Source: Vibrio injensis
GTDB lineage: Bacteria > Pseudomonadota > Gammaproteobacteria > Enterobacterales > Vibrionaceae
Assembly (NCBI RefSeq): GCF_001895205.1
Contig: NZ_BDJF01000025.1
Coordinates: 1-64,000 of the forward strand
Direction: 5' to 3'
Length of the DNA: 64,000 nt
Positions 13,764 to 33,494 of this stretch are shown one piece after another. The position numbers and the translations under genes are program-made. The notes beneath the pieces are model-generated. The model made no database searches. It was given only the letters and a program-made list of their open reading frames with translations, and was not told the origin of the DNA. Every line of letters begins with the position of its first letter. The stretch's first letter is position 1.

Positions 13764-16673
13764 TTAGTTATGTGAAACCACAATCAAACGCAGTGAATCA
13801 AGTTGGTATTGCGCTTGAGAAATATACCCACTTAATGCACTTATCTGCTGCTCTAATGCGCTGATCTCTTCATCACGGATATTCGGGTTAACCGCTTTCA
13901 GTGCCAATAAACGCGCTAACTCTACGTGCAAATTATGCTCCATCTCCTGCTTGGCCTGCTCACGAATAGCGTGTACTTTCGTACTAACCGCAGGATCGCT
14001 GGCGACAATTAAACGATGAATTTCAGCCTGTACAGAAGCCACCAATTTACTGGCTAAATGACGATTAACCGGGCTTAACTGACGATTAAAACTTTCAAAA
14101 TCGACTTGCGCTGATAAATCATTGCCGCGGCCATCCATCAGAATACGGATTGGTGTTGCGGGTAAGAAGCGGCTGATACCACTGCTCTTAGGCGCTTGAG
14201 CATCCACCAAATAGACCATCTCTAATAGAATCGTCCCCACTGGCAGCGCTTTATTTTTCAACAAAGATACCGCACAAACGCCAACTCCTTCACTCATTAG
14301 AAGATCAATCCCACCTTGAATCATCGGGTGCTCCCAACTGATAAAGTGCATATCTTCACGAGAGAGCGCTGTATTACGGTCAAAAGTAATCGTCGCCCCT
14401 TCATAAGGCAAACCGGGATAACTCGAAACCATCATATGTTCAGAGGGCGTGACCACTAAAGCATTGTCACCACGGTCATCTTGATTTAACCCAACGGTAT
14501 CAAACAGACTTAATGCGAAAGAAACCAGATTGGTATCACCATCGGTTTCTGCAATCGACTGAGCGATCTGCAGCGCTTTTTCTCCACCATTCGAGTGCAT
14601 TTCCAATAAACGGTCACGCCCTTGTTCCAATTGGCTTTTTAGGGTTTGATTGAGCTTAGCTGAAGCCTCGATCACGCTCTCCAATTCACTGCTGTCTGCC
14701 GTGGCTAGCATTGCGATCAAAGCTTCAGAAAATTGGTCGTAAACCGCACGCCCGGTTGGGCATGTTTCCGCAAAAGCATTCAATCCTTCATTAAACCAGC
14801 GAGCCAGAATCCCTTGTGACGTCCCTTGCAAATAAGGTACATAAATATCGATGTCATTTTCTTGACCAATACGATCTAAGCGACCAATCCGCTGCTCAAG
14901 CAAATCAGGGTTAAACGGCAGATCAAACATAACCAGTTGGTGAGCAAACTGGAAGTTACGTCCTTCAGAGCCAATCTCACTACAAATCAGTACCTGAGCT
15001 CCGCCCTCTTCTTGAGCAAAATAAGCCGCCGCTTTATCGCGATCAATGATTGACATTCCTTCATGGAACACCGTCGCACGGATCCCTTCTCGCTCACGAA
15101 GAGCTTGCTCTAATTGCAACGCGGTACTTGAGCGAGATGCAATGACTAAAATCTTTTCGCTACGTTTGGCTTTAACCTTATCAATCAACCAATTGACTCG
15201 TGAATCAAACTGCCACCAGCTCGCATCATCGCCTTCAAACTCTTGGAAGATTTCTTCTGGATAGAGCATTTTCATCGCTCGCGCTTGTGGACTTAGCTTA
15301 CCACCAATCATCCCCGCGACGCGCATTGACGTACTGTACTGCGCTGGAATCTCCATCGGCAATAAATGCACGTTCCGCTTAGGAAAACCTTTAATCGCAG
15401 CGCGCGTATTTCTAAATAGAACACGTCCTGTACCATGGCGATCCATAAGATTGCTGATCAACTCATCACGGGCCGCAGCTTTTTCCTGTTCATCAGCTTG
15501 ACTATCTAATACCCGCAGTAAGGGCTCGACGTCCTGCTCGGATAATAATTCTGCGATTTGATTTTTTGCGGTATCAGTCAATGCAAGACCAGATAACAAC
15601 GCGCTCACGGCATCAGCGACAGGCGCATATTGCTCTTCTTCTTTAACAAACGCGTCATAGTCATAAAAACGATCCGCATCCAGCAAGCGTAAACGAGCAA
15701 AATGACTTTCGCGTCCCAATTGCTCTGGCGTCGCGGTTAACAATAATACCGCGGGTGTGCGTTCTGCTAATCCTTCAATAACTTGATATTCACGACTCGG
15801 TTTATCTTGGCTCCATTGTAAATGGTGCGCCTCATCAACAACTAACAGATCCCATTCCGCTTCGAGCGCTTGTTCAAAACGTTGTCGGCTTTTACGTAAG
15901 AAATCTAATGAACACAAGACATATTGCTGGGTTTCAAACGGATTATCCGCTTCAGCATAGGCCTCAACACAGCGCTCTTCATCGAATACCGAAAAGTGCA
16001 AGTTAAAGCGGCGCAGCATTTCTACCAGCCACTGATGCTGCAATGTTTCAGGCACCACAATTAAAATCCGCTCTGCGCGTCCAGATAGCACTTGCTGATG
16101 AATGATCATCCCCGCTTCGATGGTTTTACCAAGACCCACTTCATCAGCTAACAAGACACGAGGCGCATAACGGCGACCCACTTCATAGGCAATGTATAAT
16201 TGATGAGGAATTAACCCCGCACGCATACCACATAGGCCGCGCATTGGGCTTTTATGTTGCTGATATTGATTGGTCAGCGCACGATAACGCAATACAAAGT
16301 TATCCATCCGATCAATTTGCCCAGCAAACAGCTTATCTTGTGGTTTATTGAAGCGGATTTGGTTACTCAGAAAAATCTCTCGCAACGCAATGCCTGCTTG
16401 TTGAGTATCTTCACGAGTCCCTAAATAGGTGAGTACGCCCTGATCTTCTACCACTTGTTCAACATTGAGTGACCAACCTTCTTGACTATCAACCGTATCA
16501 CCGACATTAAAAGCCACCCGTGTGACTGGCGCATCATGACGCGCATACACTCGGTTCTCTTCGGATGCAGCAAACATTAACGTCACCGTACGAGCGTCCA
16601 TCGCGACCACTGTACCCAACCCTAAATCACTTTCTGTATCACTTATCCAGCGTTGCCCTAAAGCAAAAGTCAT
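13764..16673 (-). CDS. rapA: RNA polymerase-associated ATPase RapA
   Basis: SWI2/SNF2-family ATPase bound to RNA polymerase that helps recycle the enzyme, especially under high salt. The 969 residues are one more than in E. coli. The N-terminus [15 protein letters not shown] is the RapA type. Walker A is DEVGLGKT with Lys at about 183, motif II is DEAHHL, and motif VI is [11 protein letters not shown]. The start is the ATG at 16673; the frame opens one codon earlier at a TTG. It is divergent from the PIN-PhoH gene, with a 445-bp intergenic region. Confidence 0.96.
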
Positions 16674-17118
16674 CAAGACTACCTCATCTATTGGGATTAA
16701 ACATTATCCGTTACCGTGACTGCACCGGTGCCAAGAAAAAGTCTACTTGTCCTACCGTTATGGTGCAGAAAAAGGTCGCTAATCTTACTTGATGGCGTGA
16801 TACAGGTCACGTCCATTCCACGCTTTTTTTCTTCAGTGGCTGGCTGACATCAAAGTGTCACATTTTAATGTCAATGCTAATTCAATAGGTTGCTATACTG
16901 AAAAAGACCAGCAGGTTGCCAAACGATACTAAACCAGTATCACCTTACATCGACGTAAGGTTTGTTGGCATACGATATGCTTGTTCAAACAGAGAGTATC
17001 CATACCAGTTTGCCTTCTATCCGCAGTGATCGACAACCTGGCGACAGCGTAGAATCGATCGTAAGCACGAGAATGCAGACCTTCATTATACCCGCTATCA
17101 CATAGCAAGGAGACGCTT
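16674..17118 (+). other. 445-bp rapA/PhoH intergenic region with CRP-like site and structured leader
   Basis: No gene is seen. A CRP-like palindrome is at 16796-16811 and a TATACT -10-like hexamer at 16894-16899 without an obvious -35. Downstream is a fold that can form a three-way junction. Its closing stem is TGCCAA (16917-16922) with TTGGCA (16965-16970). Hairpin A is GATACT (16925-16930) with AGTATC (16936-16941). Hairpin B is ACCTTAC (16942-16948) with GTAAGGT (16955-16961). A further GCATA/TATGC hairpin spans 16968-16980. A leader of about 210 nt would precede the PhoH start. Confidence 0.5.
16796..16811. promoter_or_regulatory. CRP-like binding site
   Basis: The 16-bp palindrome is CGTGA, six bases, then TCACG, one base per arm away from the CRP consensus TGTGA-N6-TCACA. 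It lies about 90 bp upstream of the candidate -10 for the PIN-PhoH gene and about 120 bp from the divergent rapA start, so either could be the target. Confidence 0.5.
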
Positions 17119-18495
17119 ATGGGCGATACTGACCGGAAACTGTTTGTCCTAGACACCAACATACTATTGCATGAACCGCTTGCAATTTACTCCTTCCAAG
17201 AACATGACGTCGTCATCCCGATGACCGTCCTCGAAGAACTCGACAGAATTAAAGACAGCAAACGCGATGTGGCCCGAGACGCACGAGTCGCCATTCGTGC
17301 CTTGGAAAACATTTTCCACGATGCAACACCGGATGAGATTTCTGAAGGTATCCCCTTAAAAAATTCAGGTGGCAATAAAGGAACGATTGCCATTTTGGCC
17401 GATTACGAAGTGCATGAAACGGTTAAAGCGTTTACCGACAAAGAGGGGGACAACCGGATCCTGAATGCCGTATTGCACCTACAAAACAAGCGCGCACCAC
17501 GTTCGGTGGTATTAATCACCAAAGACATCAACATGCGTTTACGTGCGAAGGGAGCGGGAGTACGCTTTGTTGAAGATTACCGAACTGACCAATTAATTGA
17601 CGATGTACAATACCTAACAAAAGGCTTCCAGACCCGTCCCGGTAATTTTTGGGATAATGTCGATAGTGTGGACAGTTATACTTTGGGAGGCAAAACCTTC
17701 CATAAATTGGATCGCAAACCTTTCGAGCCCACCTACATTAATCAATATGTATTGGATGAAGAAAGTGACTTCACCGCTCGAGTCGAAACCCTCAGCGATG
17801 ACTCAATAACCCTACGTGATCTTGGACGTGAGCGGCTCATGCACCGTAAAGTCTGGGACATCATGCCAAAAAACATTTATCAGGCCATGGCATTAGATGC
17901 CTTGCTCGATCCTGAGATTGATTTAGTCATTCTCACCGGCGCGGCCGGTAGTGGTAAAACGTTACTGGCTATGGCCGCCGCCTTAGACCAAACCATCGAA
18001 CGCAAAATGTTCGATAAAATCATTGTTACTCGCAACACACCCGATATTGGTGAGTCGATCGGCTTTTTACCGGGTAGTGAAGAAGAGAAAATGATGCCTT
18101 GGTTAGCCGCCATCACCGATACTTTAGAAGCGCTGCACAAGCACGATCACTGTACCGAGGGCTCGCTCAAATACATCTGTGATAAAGCGAATATTCAATT
18201 TAAATCCATCAACTTTATGCGTGGTCGCTCAATACAAAATGCCTTTGTCTTATTGGATGAGTGCCAAAACTTAACCGCATCACAAATTAAAACCATCATT
18301 ACTCGCTGTGGAGAAGGAACCAAAATTGTCTGTTCCGGTAACTTGGCACAAATTGATTCCCACTATCTCACGCCTGTCACCTCCGGGCTCACCTACATGG
18401 TTGAGCGTTTCAAAAACTTCGAAGGCAGTGCCAACATTCACCTCAATGGTGTCGTTCGTAGCCGCTTAGCTGAATTTGCGGAAGAAAACTTATAA
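17119..18495 (+). CDS. PIN-PhoH family ATPase/RNase (PhoH2-like)
   Basis: A 458-aa two-domain protein. An N-terminal PIN nuclease domain (about residues 8-150) has the acidic residues of VLDTNILLHE, LEELDRIKD and a later Asp-rich segment (EGDNRILNAVLHL, TKDINMRLRAKG). A C-terminal PhoH P-loop ATPase has GAAGSGKT at 274-281 and the Walker B-like LLDECQNLT. PIN-PhoH proteins from mycobacteria and others unwind and cleave RNA; the role in Vibrio is not established. Translation should be strong: AAGGAG is 8 nt before ATG 17119. It is monocistronic, with a long structured leader. Confidence 0.9.
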   Translation: MGDTDRKLFVLDTNILLHEPLAIYSFQEHDVVIPMTVLEELDRIKDSKRDVARDARVAIRALENIFHDATPDEISEGIPLKNSGGNKGTIAILADYEVHETVKAFTDKEGDNRILNAVLHLQNKRAPRSVVLITKDINMRLRAKGAGVRFVEDYRTDQLIDDVQYLTKGFQTRPGNFWDNVDSVDSYTLGGKTFHKLDRKPFEPTYINQYVLDEESDFTARVETLSDDSITLRDLGRERLMHRKVWDIMPKNIYQAMALDALLDPEIDLVILTGAAGSGKTLLAMAAALDQTIERKMFDKIIVTRNTPDIGESIGFLPGSEEEKMMPWLAAITDTLEALHKHDHCTEGSLKYICDKANIQFKSINFMRGRSIQNAFVLLDECQNLTASQIKTIITRCGEGTKIVCSGNLAQIDSHYLTPVTSGLTYMVERFKNFEGSANIHLNGVVRSRLAEFAEENL

Positions 18496-18501
18496 CCCAA
18501 T

Positions 18502-18530
18502 GCGGTGAGTTATTTCACATGACTCACCGC
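18502..18530 (+). terminator. Hairpin after the PIN-PhoH gene
   Basis: Perfect 9-bp arms GCGGTGAGT and ACTCACCGC, 7 nt after the stop codon. No T tract follows (CAACAAAAAT), so it may be an mRNA 3'-end stabiliser or a weak terminator rather than a classical one. Confidence 0.45.
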
Positions 18531-18532
18531 CA

Positions 18533-18550
18533 ACAAAAATAATTATTCAC
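18533..18550 (+). promoter_or_regulatory. Candidate ARG box upstream of argF
   Basis: AAAATAATTATTCA (18536-18549) matches the ArgR operator core TGAATAATTATTCA at 11 of 14 positions, with one half-site (ATTCA) perfect. It lies about 60 bp before the argF start, where an arginine-repressed operator is expected. A second box in the usual tandem position is degenerate. Confidence 0.45.
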
Positions 18551-18608
18551 TTTTATAGCATTTATATGTTTAACTAGTCCTATTCTTTTTTATGGTTAAG
18601 GACTCGAT

Positions 18609-19613
18609 ATGGCTTTTAATTTGCGTCAACGTAATTTTCTAAAATTACTTGATTTCACTCCCCAAGAAATTCAATTTTTATTGAGTCTAGCGGCGGACTT
18701 AAAGCGAGCCAAATACGCAGGCACCGAGCAAAAAAACTTACTGGGTAAAAATATTGCGCTTATTTTTGAGAAAGCCTCCACGCGCACCCGCTGCGCTTTT
18801 GAAGTTGCTGCCTTTGATCAAGGCGCTCAAGTCACCTATATTGGCCCTTCCGGATCGCAAATTGGCCATAAAGAATCAATGAAAGATACGGCACGAGTAT
18901 TGGGCCGTATGTACGATGGCATACAATATCGCGGTTATGGTCAATCGATCGTCGAAGAACTTGGCCAATATGCTGGGGTTCCAGTATGGAATGGCCTCAC
19001 TGATGAGTTTCATCCAACGCAAATTCTGGCTGATTTCCTAACCATGCAAGAGTTTTCTCATGGTAAAACTCTAGATCAAATCCGCTTTGCTTATCTTGGT
19101 GATGCGCGCAATAACATGGGCAATTCGCTCATGGTCGGCGCGGCAAAAATGGGCATGGATATTCGCTTAGTCGCTCCTAAAGCTTTCTGGCCAGACCGTC
19201 AATTGGTCGATACTTGTCAAAGGATTGCTCAACAAACAGGGGCAAGTATTACCTTGACCGAAGATGTCGCAGAGGGCGTCAAAGGCTGCGATTTCCTCTA
19301 CACCGATGTTTGGGTCTCAATGGGTGAAGAACCCGAAGCGTGGGACGAACGCGTAGCGATCATGACGCCTTATCAAGTTAATATGGCGGCTATTCGTGCC
19401 ACGGGGAATCCTCGCGTTAAATTCATGCACTGCTTACCCGCCTTTCATAATGATCAAACCACCGTTGGTAAACAAGTCGCTGAAAAATATGGTATGCAAG
19501 GCTTAGAGGTTACTGAAGAAGTGTTTGAGTCCGAACACGCGATCGTGTTTGATCAAGCGGAAAACCGACTCCATACCATCAAAGCCGTGATGGTCGCCAC
19601 CTTAGGTGGATAA
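18609..19613 (+). CDS. argF: Ornithine carbamoyltransferase
   Basis: Catalyses carbamoyl phosphate + ornithine to citrulline in arginine biosynthesis, in the cytosol. The 334 residues match the anabolic enzyme. The carbamoyl-phosphate motif STRTR is at about 57-61, the HPTQ loop lies in [11 protein letters not shown], and the catalytic HCLP motif is at about 274-277 ([10 protein letters not shown]). The start ATG 18609 follows TAAGGACTCGAT. It lies directly before pyrBI, the other carbamoyltransferase. A catabolic ArcB role is less likely because no arcA or arcC is nearby and an ARG-box-like site precedes it. Confidence 0.93.
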
Positions 19614-32036: not shown

Positions 32037-33494
32037 ATGAAACCTTCATTACAGCTCAAGCTTGGTCAACAGTTAGCCATGACTCCCCAGTTGCAGCAAG
32101 CTATCCGTTTGCTGCAACTCTCTACCTTGGATCTACAACAAGAGATCCAAGAAGCTTTGATCTCTAACCCGCTACTCGATGTTGAAGAGACCATTGAAGA
32201 GTTCTCCGCTAACGACAACTCTGTGCGCAATAATGAAGACCCAGCTCCCAGTGCAGAGGCCAGTGAACCGGAAGACAGTTCACAATTAATCGAAAAGTCA
32301 GAAATCAGCGCCGAGCTAGAAATGGACGCTAGTTGGGATGACGTCTACAGCGCCAACACTGGCAGCACAGGGTTAGCCTTAGACGATGATTTACCCATTT
32401 ACCAAGGCGAAACCACCGAAACACTGCAAGATTATTTATTATGGCAACTCGATCTCACCCCTTTTAGCGATACTGATCGTACTATCGCTCGGGCATTAAT
32501 CGACGCGATCGACGATCACGGTTACCTCACTGTCCCGCTGAGTGATATTTTAGAAAACTTCGCAGAACAAGAGATCGAGCTGGACGAAGTAGAAGCGGTT
32601 CGCAAACGTATCCAACAATTTGATCCTCTTGGTGTCGCTTCGATCAATCTGCAAGATTGCTTGCTACTGCAATTGGCAACCTATCCAAGCGACACCCCTT
32701 GGTTAAATGAAGCTAAGCTGTTGCTCACCGATTACATCGATCTGTTAGGCAATCGTGACTTTAAATTGATTGTTAAAGAGAGCAAACTCAAAGAAGAAGC
32801 TTTACGCGATGCGCTACAACTGATTCAACAGTTAGATCCTCGCCCTGGCAACCGAATCTCTCAAGAGCAAGCGGAATATGTTGTGCCAGACGTGTCGGTT
32901 TATAAAGATCGAGGCAAATGGCAAGTCAGCATTAATCCCGATAGCGTCCCGAAATTAAAGATCAATCAGCAATACGCTAGTCTTGCCCGAGGTAATAATC
33001 CCGATAGCAACTATATTCGTTCTAATTTGCAAGAGGCAAAGTGGTTAATTAAGAGCCTTGAAAGCCGAAACGAGACCTTGCTCAAAGTTGCCAAGTGCAT
33101 AGTTGAACATCAGCGCGATTTCTTCGAATATGGCGAAGAAGCGATGAAGCCGATGGTACTGAATGACGTAGCACTGATTGTGGAGATGCATGAATCGACC
33201 ATTTCTCGAGTAACAACTCAGAAGTACATGCACACTCCACGGGGTATTTTTGAACTGAAGTACTTTTTCTCAAGTCATGTCAGTACCGATAATGGCGGAG
33301 AGTGTTCATCGACTGCGATTCGCGCCCTGATTAAAAAATTGGTGGCGGCAGAAAACCCAGCGAAACCATTAAGTGATAGCAAAATCGCAGCCCTACTCGC
33401 TGATCAAGGGATTCAGGTAGCAAGACGGACAATTGCGAAATACCGTGAATCCTTGGCGATTGCGCCCTCGAGTCAGCGGAAACGCCTGTTATAA
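32037..33494 (+). CDS. rpoN: RNA polymerase factor sigma-54
   Basis: Alternative sigma factor for enhancer-dependent promoters; in Vibrio it controls flagella, nitrogen use and quorum-sensing small RNAs (family knowledge). It is 485 aa. Region I is Gln/Leu-rich ([21 protein letters not shown]), an acidic region II follows (about 50-125), then the core-binding and helix-turn-helix domains. The RpoN box [10 protein letters not shown] is at 462-471. The ribosome-binding site is poor (AAGGT 12 nt upstream). It heads rpoN-hpf-ptsN-rapZ-npr. Confidence 0.97.

Follow-up and report, generated by a model that had tools for sequence, protein, structure and literature searches.

A self-regulating 5′ leader of an RNase gene is found in the rne leader of RNase E. 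Among bacterial promoters, a Pho box is usually spaced ~10 bp from the -10 hexamer, and sigma54 promoters carry the consensus YTGGCACGNNNNTTGCW. The latter is given as TGGCAC-N5-7-TTGCT in the accessible portion of PMC12316311. With regard to the enzyme family that concerns us here, the available text of PMC7390352 describes PhoH2 proteins as highly conserved and poorly characterised, and presents mycobacterial PhoH2 as an RNase/helicase with a preference for double-stranded RNA with a 5′ overhang. In the accessible text of PMC10127744, phoH is named once, among mutated phosphate genes. Our search of the literature, conducted largely outside the subscription journals, found no publication tying phoH2 to RpoN or describing its leader.

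Results

The window, i.e. the whole 64,000-nucleotide stretch of DNA analysed here, contains phoH2 at 17119-18495 on the plus strand. Its 458-aa product matches PF13638 (PIN_4) and PF02562 (PhoH), which marks it as PhoH2-type and bears out the PIN-PhoH identity assigned by the original prediction. The protein, with 100 % identity to its V. metschnikovii CIP 69.14 counterpart (L031), places the window in a Vibrio close to that species; identity among the full-length Vibrio phoH2 proteins compared is at least 80 %. We take VC2507 to be the locus tag of this gene. The divergent rapA (13764-16676, minus strand) is separated from phoH2 by an intergenic stretch of 442 nt, and a gene of the ornithine/aspartate carbamoyltransferase family (18609-19613) comes next after phoH2. 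Vibrio genomes with no full-length phoH2 match were G016, G022, G111, G159, and G187, and at G182:C3:90252-91621, in another Vibrionaceae genus, phoH2 is seemingly split between two overlapping frames.

For comparison, the gene and its upstream DNA were taken from 30 genomes, 80 named records, and another 57 places, of which 46 belong to other genera. After deduplication, the 30 genomes and 80 named records yielded 99 distinct Vibrio upstream sequences, which were aligned and folded; these loci are related by descent and fall into 32 leader clusters, of which those called Harveyi and Splendidus bear names that we presume from general taxonomy. Sequence matches, their distribution, and covariation across Vibrio were computed directly. 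As in the window, many relatives carry upstream a CRP-like palindrome (GTGATACAGGTCAC, 16797-16810) and the stretch TGGTGCAGAAAAAGGTCGCTAATCTTACTTGA (16761-16792), either of which may belong to the rapA promoter.

The original prediction had drawn attention to a three-way junction on the plus strand (16917-16970), which on folding would be carried by the upstream transcript only, if that is made. Its closing stem (TGCCAA 16917-16922/TTGGCA 16965-16970) encloses inner hairpin 1 at 16925-16941 (GATACT 16925-16930/AGTATC 16936-16941) and inner hairpin 2 at 16942-16961 (ACCTTAC 16942-16948/GTAAGGT 16955-16961), and we found all of these elements as described, with perfect stems in both inner hairpins. 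The small hairpin reported to follow (GCATA 16968-16972/TATGC 16976-16980) is likewise present, although it shares three bases (16968-16970) with the closing stem instead of two; owing to this overlap the hairpin and the closing stem are mutually exclusive and represent alternatives. The stretch 16905-16995 folded with -25.9 kcal/mol as opposed to -15.6 ± 2.8 in a set of 200 dinucleotide shuffles, one of which did as well (z -3.73), and 16905-17121 with a z of -3.13 (1 of 200 shuffles as good). The minimum-energy fold consisted of the reported three-way junction and an additional outer stem (16906-16913/16978-16985). In this single sequence, the fold is better than chance.

The interior of the junction was matched at E ≤ 1e-5 in 2 of 227 Vibrio genomes, namely the window's own and that of V. 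metschnikovii CIP 69.14 (G267), in a search that scored three candidates per genome and that weaker similarity may escape. In the other matching Vibrio, homology to 16830-17130 extended from 16964-16986 (8 genomes, long matches) or from 17094-17105 (15 genomes, short matches), and 202 of the 227 genomes had no match to this stretch at the same threshold. At the position of the inner hairpins, relatives carry unrelated sequence, many of them with a simple hairpin there. Of the conservation expected for the stems, the closing stem has its equivalents in relatives, whereas the inner hairpins have none. Compared with the window, G267 shows four differences in the three-way region, three of them in loops and one converting a U-A into a U-G pair, which are compatible with folding and too few for proof. 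As judged from this distribution, the three-way fold seems to be specific to one species; it is known from two sequences only, and the covariation tests given below were applied to the leader elements P2 and P4.

The 3′ arm of the closing stem, together with the GCATA/TATGC hairpin, makes up a predicted sigma54 -24/-12 promoter, TTGGCATACGATATGCT (16965-16981, plus strand), with GG (16967-16968) and GC (16979-16980) ten bases apart and a score of 10/13 against a TTGGCAC-N5-TTGCW-like consensus. By the usual promoter geometry, its predicted start is at ~16992. Boxes of this type (GG-N10-GC, 10 or more of the 13 consensus letters matching) were found in 43 of the 99 distinct Vibrio loci vs 3.1 % of 1980 shuffles, a count that drops to 41 without L044 (-193) and L104 (-75), whose positions fit poorly; by hand count, they occur in 14 of the 32 leader clusters, or 12 if the same two loci are set aside. 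As the search demanded GG and GC, the perfect conservation of these is by construction, and only the other letters are informative. The non-required letters (T, C, and A of TGGCA; T of TGC) were kept across clusters while the spacer was more variable, in a comparison of 45 sequences that include L114 and L153, plus L033 and L044 (matches that may be chance). The -12 box was mostly ATGC or CTGC, not TTGC. Within the 3.67 Mb genome, the pattern TTGGCAYN6TGCW occurs 24 times, once as 16965-16981, and the reversed-pattern control six times. The remaining 56 of the 99 loci fell below the sigma54 threshold, including both large clusters which we take to be the Harveyi and Splendidus groups.

The sigma54 factor itself, RpoN (PF00309, PF04963, PF04552), is encoded in the same window at 32037-33494, ~14 kb downstream of phoH2. 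By eye, two small genes 3′ of rpoN resemble hpf and ptsN and are followed by rapZ. No clear enhancer site was recognised by eye upstream of the sigma54 box. RtcR was considered as the activator and discarded, as this genome lacks its gene, which a search of 37 genomes located in 4. The accessible part of PMC9817140, which tabulates sigma54 sites of V. parahaemolyticus, makes no mention of phoH, and the Harveyi-type leaders examined here are devoid of the box.

Folding of 40 sequences showed that in relatives the sigma54 box mostly forms the 3′ side of a simple hairpin. Against shuffles, pairing of the inverted repeat over the box had a mean z of -2.0 with p ≤ 0.05 in 23 of 40 sequences, the rows of L001 and L031 representing a shortened segment in which GATACT of the hairpin had been taken as the -10 box. 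In the 5′ arm, a U often faces a G of the -24 box. Furthermore, the Harveyi cluster, which is without the box, displayed a hairpin tendency at the same place (mean z -1.3 for ten sequences, one of which, L047, was cut short), and in the Splendidus cluster, also without it, z was below -1.8 in seven of the nine correctly cut sequences, the other four of the 13 (L091, L092, L093, and L097) having been cut at the wrong place. Hence, part of the conservation of the box may serve RNA pairing. The three-way junction of the window is an elaboration of the simple hairpin of its relatives. L007 and L009 have a long upstream hairpin that runs into a stretch of T, resembling a weak intrinsic terminator.

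Further upstream lies a Pho box (predicted PhoB site), TGACATCAAAGTGTCACA (16845-16862, plus strand), which scored 15.3 bits with a matrix built from the 59 E. coli sites of Table 1 in the available part of PMC10294691. It is the second best 18-mer of the window on both strands, the best one (34904) being located inside rapZ. The sigma70 -10-like box TATACT (16894-16899, plus strand) is without a -35 and has a predicted start at ~16905; among the 89 Vibrio loci with an anchor found, 56 have TATACT as their best -10 match. A generic sigma70 scan, which requires a -35, returned no promoter in the rapA-phoH2 intergenic region. The distance from the end of the Pho box to the -10-like hexamer is 31 bp, outside the usual spacing, and a third, weaker Pho repeat was seen by eye nearer to the hexamer. 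The original prediction relied on transcription starting no further downstream than 16980, and in this respect the start predicted at ~16905 agrees with it, yet another one is predicted at ~16992.

Pho box scores in the other Vibrio are often lower (7.5-13.6 bits), the box standing mostly 210-305 nt 5′ of the ATG, and in many of them it reaches only 7.5-8.3 bits, a level expected by chance in ~0.09-0.13 of 330-nt stretches. A good part of the other genera possesses Pho boxes of 11-18 bits ~75-180 nt before the ATG, and several distant relatives have none. As the Pho box of other genera is nearer to the ATG, the Vibrio leader looks as if it had been added between promoter and ribosome site.

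The conserved RNA structure sits 3′ of the reported junction and after the predicted sigma54 start. It comprises, all on the plus strand, the leader stem P2 (17008-17080; GTTTGC 17008-17013/GCAGAC 17075-17080, with inner helices by minimum energy), based on covariation in 30 Vibrio leaders, and the hairpin P4 (17094-17106; GCTAT/ATAGC), based on covariation in 52 Vibrio sequences, which abuts the Shine-Dalgarno AAGGAG (17107-17112; AGGAG in 52 of 52 rows of alignment A2). The segment before P2 (16998-17007) is strongly conserved in relatives, where it reads AUCAACACGG in alignment A1, and has diverged here to AUCCAUACCA. A1 was aligned from sequence alone and contains 30 of 36 hand-picked leaders (L049, L060, L081, L084, L044, and L078 were left out) from the 79 usable named loci, 52 of which constitute A2.

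On A1, with a structure drawn from folds of some of its own sequences, P2 and P4 together showed 44 doubly changed paired cells vs 13.7 ± 3.0 after shuffling (reached in 0 of 500) and 5-16 in slid versions. P4 alone, on A2, showed 30 vs 7.5 ± 2.4 (0 of 500; slid versions 3-11), with the variants GCCGC/GCGGC, GCTAT/ATAGC, and GCTGC/GCAGC interchanging immediately 5′ of AAGGAG. The number of pair types of P2 and P4 on A1 was reached by 24 of 500 shuffles; for P4 on A2, 142 of 500 reached the pair number and 127 of 500 the pair types. Run on A1, RNAalifold predicted the outer helix of P2 together with P4 and nothing else, and showed double changes in P4 alone; the inner P2 helix was 66.7 % paired. 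The folding-energy statistics for the whole leader are weak (last 140 nt of 45 sequences: mean z -1.46, reverse complement -1.26, upstream control -0.75).

The covariance model R1 matched the window at 16998-17118 with an E of 8e-11, its training including the near-identical L031; in this match a different P2 3′ arm was aligned, with eight non-standard pairs, the window's own P2 being diverged. R1 matched 75 of the 79 named loci, 30 of these being its training rows, and in 83 of 118 Vibrio genomes it had a single match. Wherever both were listed, the match abuts phoH2, except in G087 and G137, in which ~50 nt lie between the two and the coding start is further upstream. In 40 genomes of other Vibrionaceae genera, R1 gave six marginal matches at E ≤ 0.1 (best 0.0094), none of them at phoH2. 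The leader of V. fujianensis (L035) represents a natural deletion, in which the stretch separating the last hairpin from the Pho box promoter is almost entirely gone: P1 and P2 are lost, P4 is kept with one mismatch, and the Pho box is at -93. As this leader still matches R1 weakly (0.0038) despite the loss of P2, low-scoring matches may rest on P4 and the Shine-Dalgarno alone. No known Rfam family matched the leader above its gathering cut-off; over the whole window the Rfam search gave only a tRNA, and the two hits obtained for 16700-17300 had E values above 6. Taken together, the comparison of leaders makes a Vibrio leader RNA not listed in Rfam well supported. The long and possibly regulatory leader suspected originally is supported in that phoH2 in Vibrio usually has a leader that is long, structured, and probably regulatory.

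Two further candidates were considered. A trans small RNA pairing with AUCAACACGG was sought in six genomes, where the complement, with one mismatch allowed, gave 2 to 5 matches per genome, one each being the leader itself; five variants recurred, each in two of the six, and no second complementary site was common to all six. For an upstream ORF in the manner of phoAT, the leaders showed neither a start nor a length nor a ribosome site shared by all: 63 of the 99 hold an ORF of 20 codons or more, seven of them with a Shine-Dalgarno-like site. A motif of the AUCAAC type occurs at 63 loci; it is preceded by an in-frame start in 40 and by an ATG two codons before it in 23, but a Shine-Dalgarno-like site accompanies only four, and the stops differ. 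The mini-ORFs at the 23 loci read e.g. MTINTGLQ and mostly lack a recognisable ribosome site; in some groups there may be a mini-ORF of 8-10 codons.

Discussion

From the comparison of these loci, we consider it somewhat more probable than not that the control region of phoH2 consists of two predicted promoters and one shared leader, and joint control by sigma54 and PhoB is a plausible prediction. In this model, in which we infer the activity of both promoters, their start sites, and the roles of P2 and P4, phosphate starvation would act via PhoB on the sigma70 promoter (16845-16899) and generate a long transcript from ~16905, whose first 80 nt would form a hairpin or, in V. metschnikovii, a three-way junction. 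Embedded in the 3′ arm of this upstream fold, the sigma54 promoter (16965-16981) would respond to a second signal through an enhancer-binding protein and generate a shorter transcript from ~16992. Both transcripts would contain P4 and, ahead of it, the long P2 stem (17008-17080) preceded by a short 5′ segment. The reported junction would be carried by the upstream transcript only and may protect its 5′ end. P4, abutting the Shine-Dalgarno, probably prevents sequestration of the ribosome site or gates it, and P2, with the conserved segment that precedes it in relatives, is a candidate binding site.

The same box could be read as RNA alone, with only the sigma70/PhoB promoter real, TTGGCA...TGC being the 3′ arm of an mRNA-stabilising 5′-terminal hairpin, and the sigma54 match incidental. 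In most of the 40 folded sequences the arm finds a pairing partner upstream, the U opposite the -24 G would be a wobble, sensible for RNA and not for a DNA dyad, and the Harveyi and Splendidus clusters, without a sigma54 box, also tend to a hairpin there; nevertheless, both the GG-N10-GC spacing, which recurs from cluster to cluster although the spacer varies, and the match to a genome-rare pattern are left unexplained, so that we regard this reading as unlikely, albeit by no means negligible. Only somewhat unlikely, and compatible with the two-promoter model, is that the inner hairpins arose by chance or by a recent functionless insertion into a conserved control region, as they are seen in one species and face unrelated sequence in relatives. 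Against this speaks, weakly given so few differences, that both stems are perfect and persist although the two V. metschnikovii sequences differ at four positions.

Self-regulation by cleavage, for which the junction had been proposed, would mean that PhoH2 binds its own mRNA at the junction and cuts it there. The junction fold is stable, and the preference for 5′-overhang double-stranded RNA that the available text of PMC7390352 describes for the RNase/helicase PhoH2 of mycobacteria would suit such a role; yet the interior is present in 2 of 227 Vibrio genomes while the phoH2 proteins are at least 80 % identical, which renders this target highly improbable. As a functional element the three-way junction is not supported, for its interior was found only in V. 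metschnikovii and its 3′ arm is mostly the predicted sigma54 promoter: the stems were observed correctly, and the functional unit proposed from them was misplaced. The other suggestion, an independent small RNA starting near 16906, could draw on the -10-like box just upstream of this position, but the leader has no plus-strand terminator-like site (none after 16251 in a scan of 16000-19000) and no Rfam match, and its conserved RNA part is present in one copy, ahead of phoH2 where compared; such an RNA thus appears very unlikely.

Returning to the two-promoter model, the 5′ overhang followed by a double strand that mycobacterial PhoH2 prefers would also be the shape of this leader, an analogy that we regard as a lead. 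It could mean that P2 and the segment preceding it (~16992-17080) are a cis substrate of PhoH2 and that promoter choice sets self-control, which we consider an improbable extension of the model. PhoH2 would then load on the 5′ single strand of the transcript from the sigma54 start, unwind or cut P2, and limit its own translation, and the upstream transcript, its 5′ end closed by a hairpin, would escape. Should the model be true, the leader RNA together with joint PhoB/sigma54 control would tell when Vibrio makes this RNA helicase/RNase. In addition, the conserved leader RNA would offer a ready assay for PhoH2 self-regulation, and the region is a sensible site for studying how PhoH2 is switched on.

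Compared with known systems, the locus resembles the mycobacterial phoAT-phoH2 module (available text of PMC7390352) in encoding the same PIN-PhoH enzyme type, whereas the Vibrio leaders showed no upstream ORF of common start, length, and ribosome site. Like the rne leader of RNase E, it places a structured leader ahead of a gene for an RNA-processing enzyme, although no Rfam relation was found here. With PhoB promoters such as that of E. coli phoH it shares two 6-mers at an 11-bp period, reaching 15.3 bits in the matrix from the accessible part of PMC10294691; here, however, 31 bp separate the end of the box from the -10-like hexamer. Finally, GG-N10-GC, the TTGGCA core, the T before GC, and the A/T after it are reminiscent of sigma54 promoters, including the V. 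parahaemolyticus sites of Table 2 in PMC9817140, while the -12 box of phoH2 is instead ATGC or CTGC and lies within an inverted repeat, ~65 nt downstream of a -10-like box.
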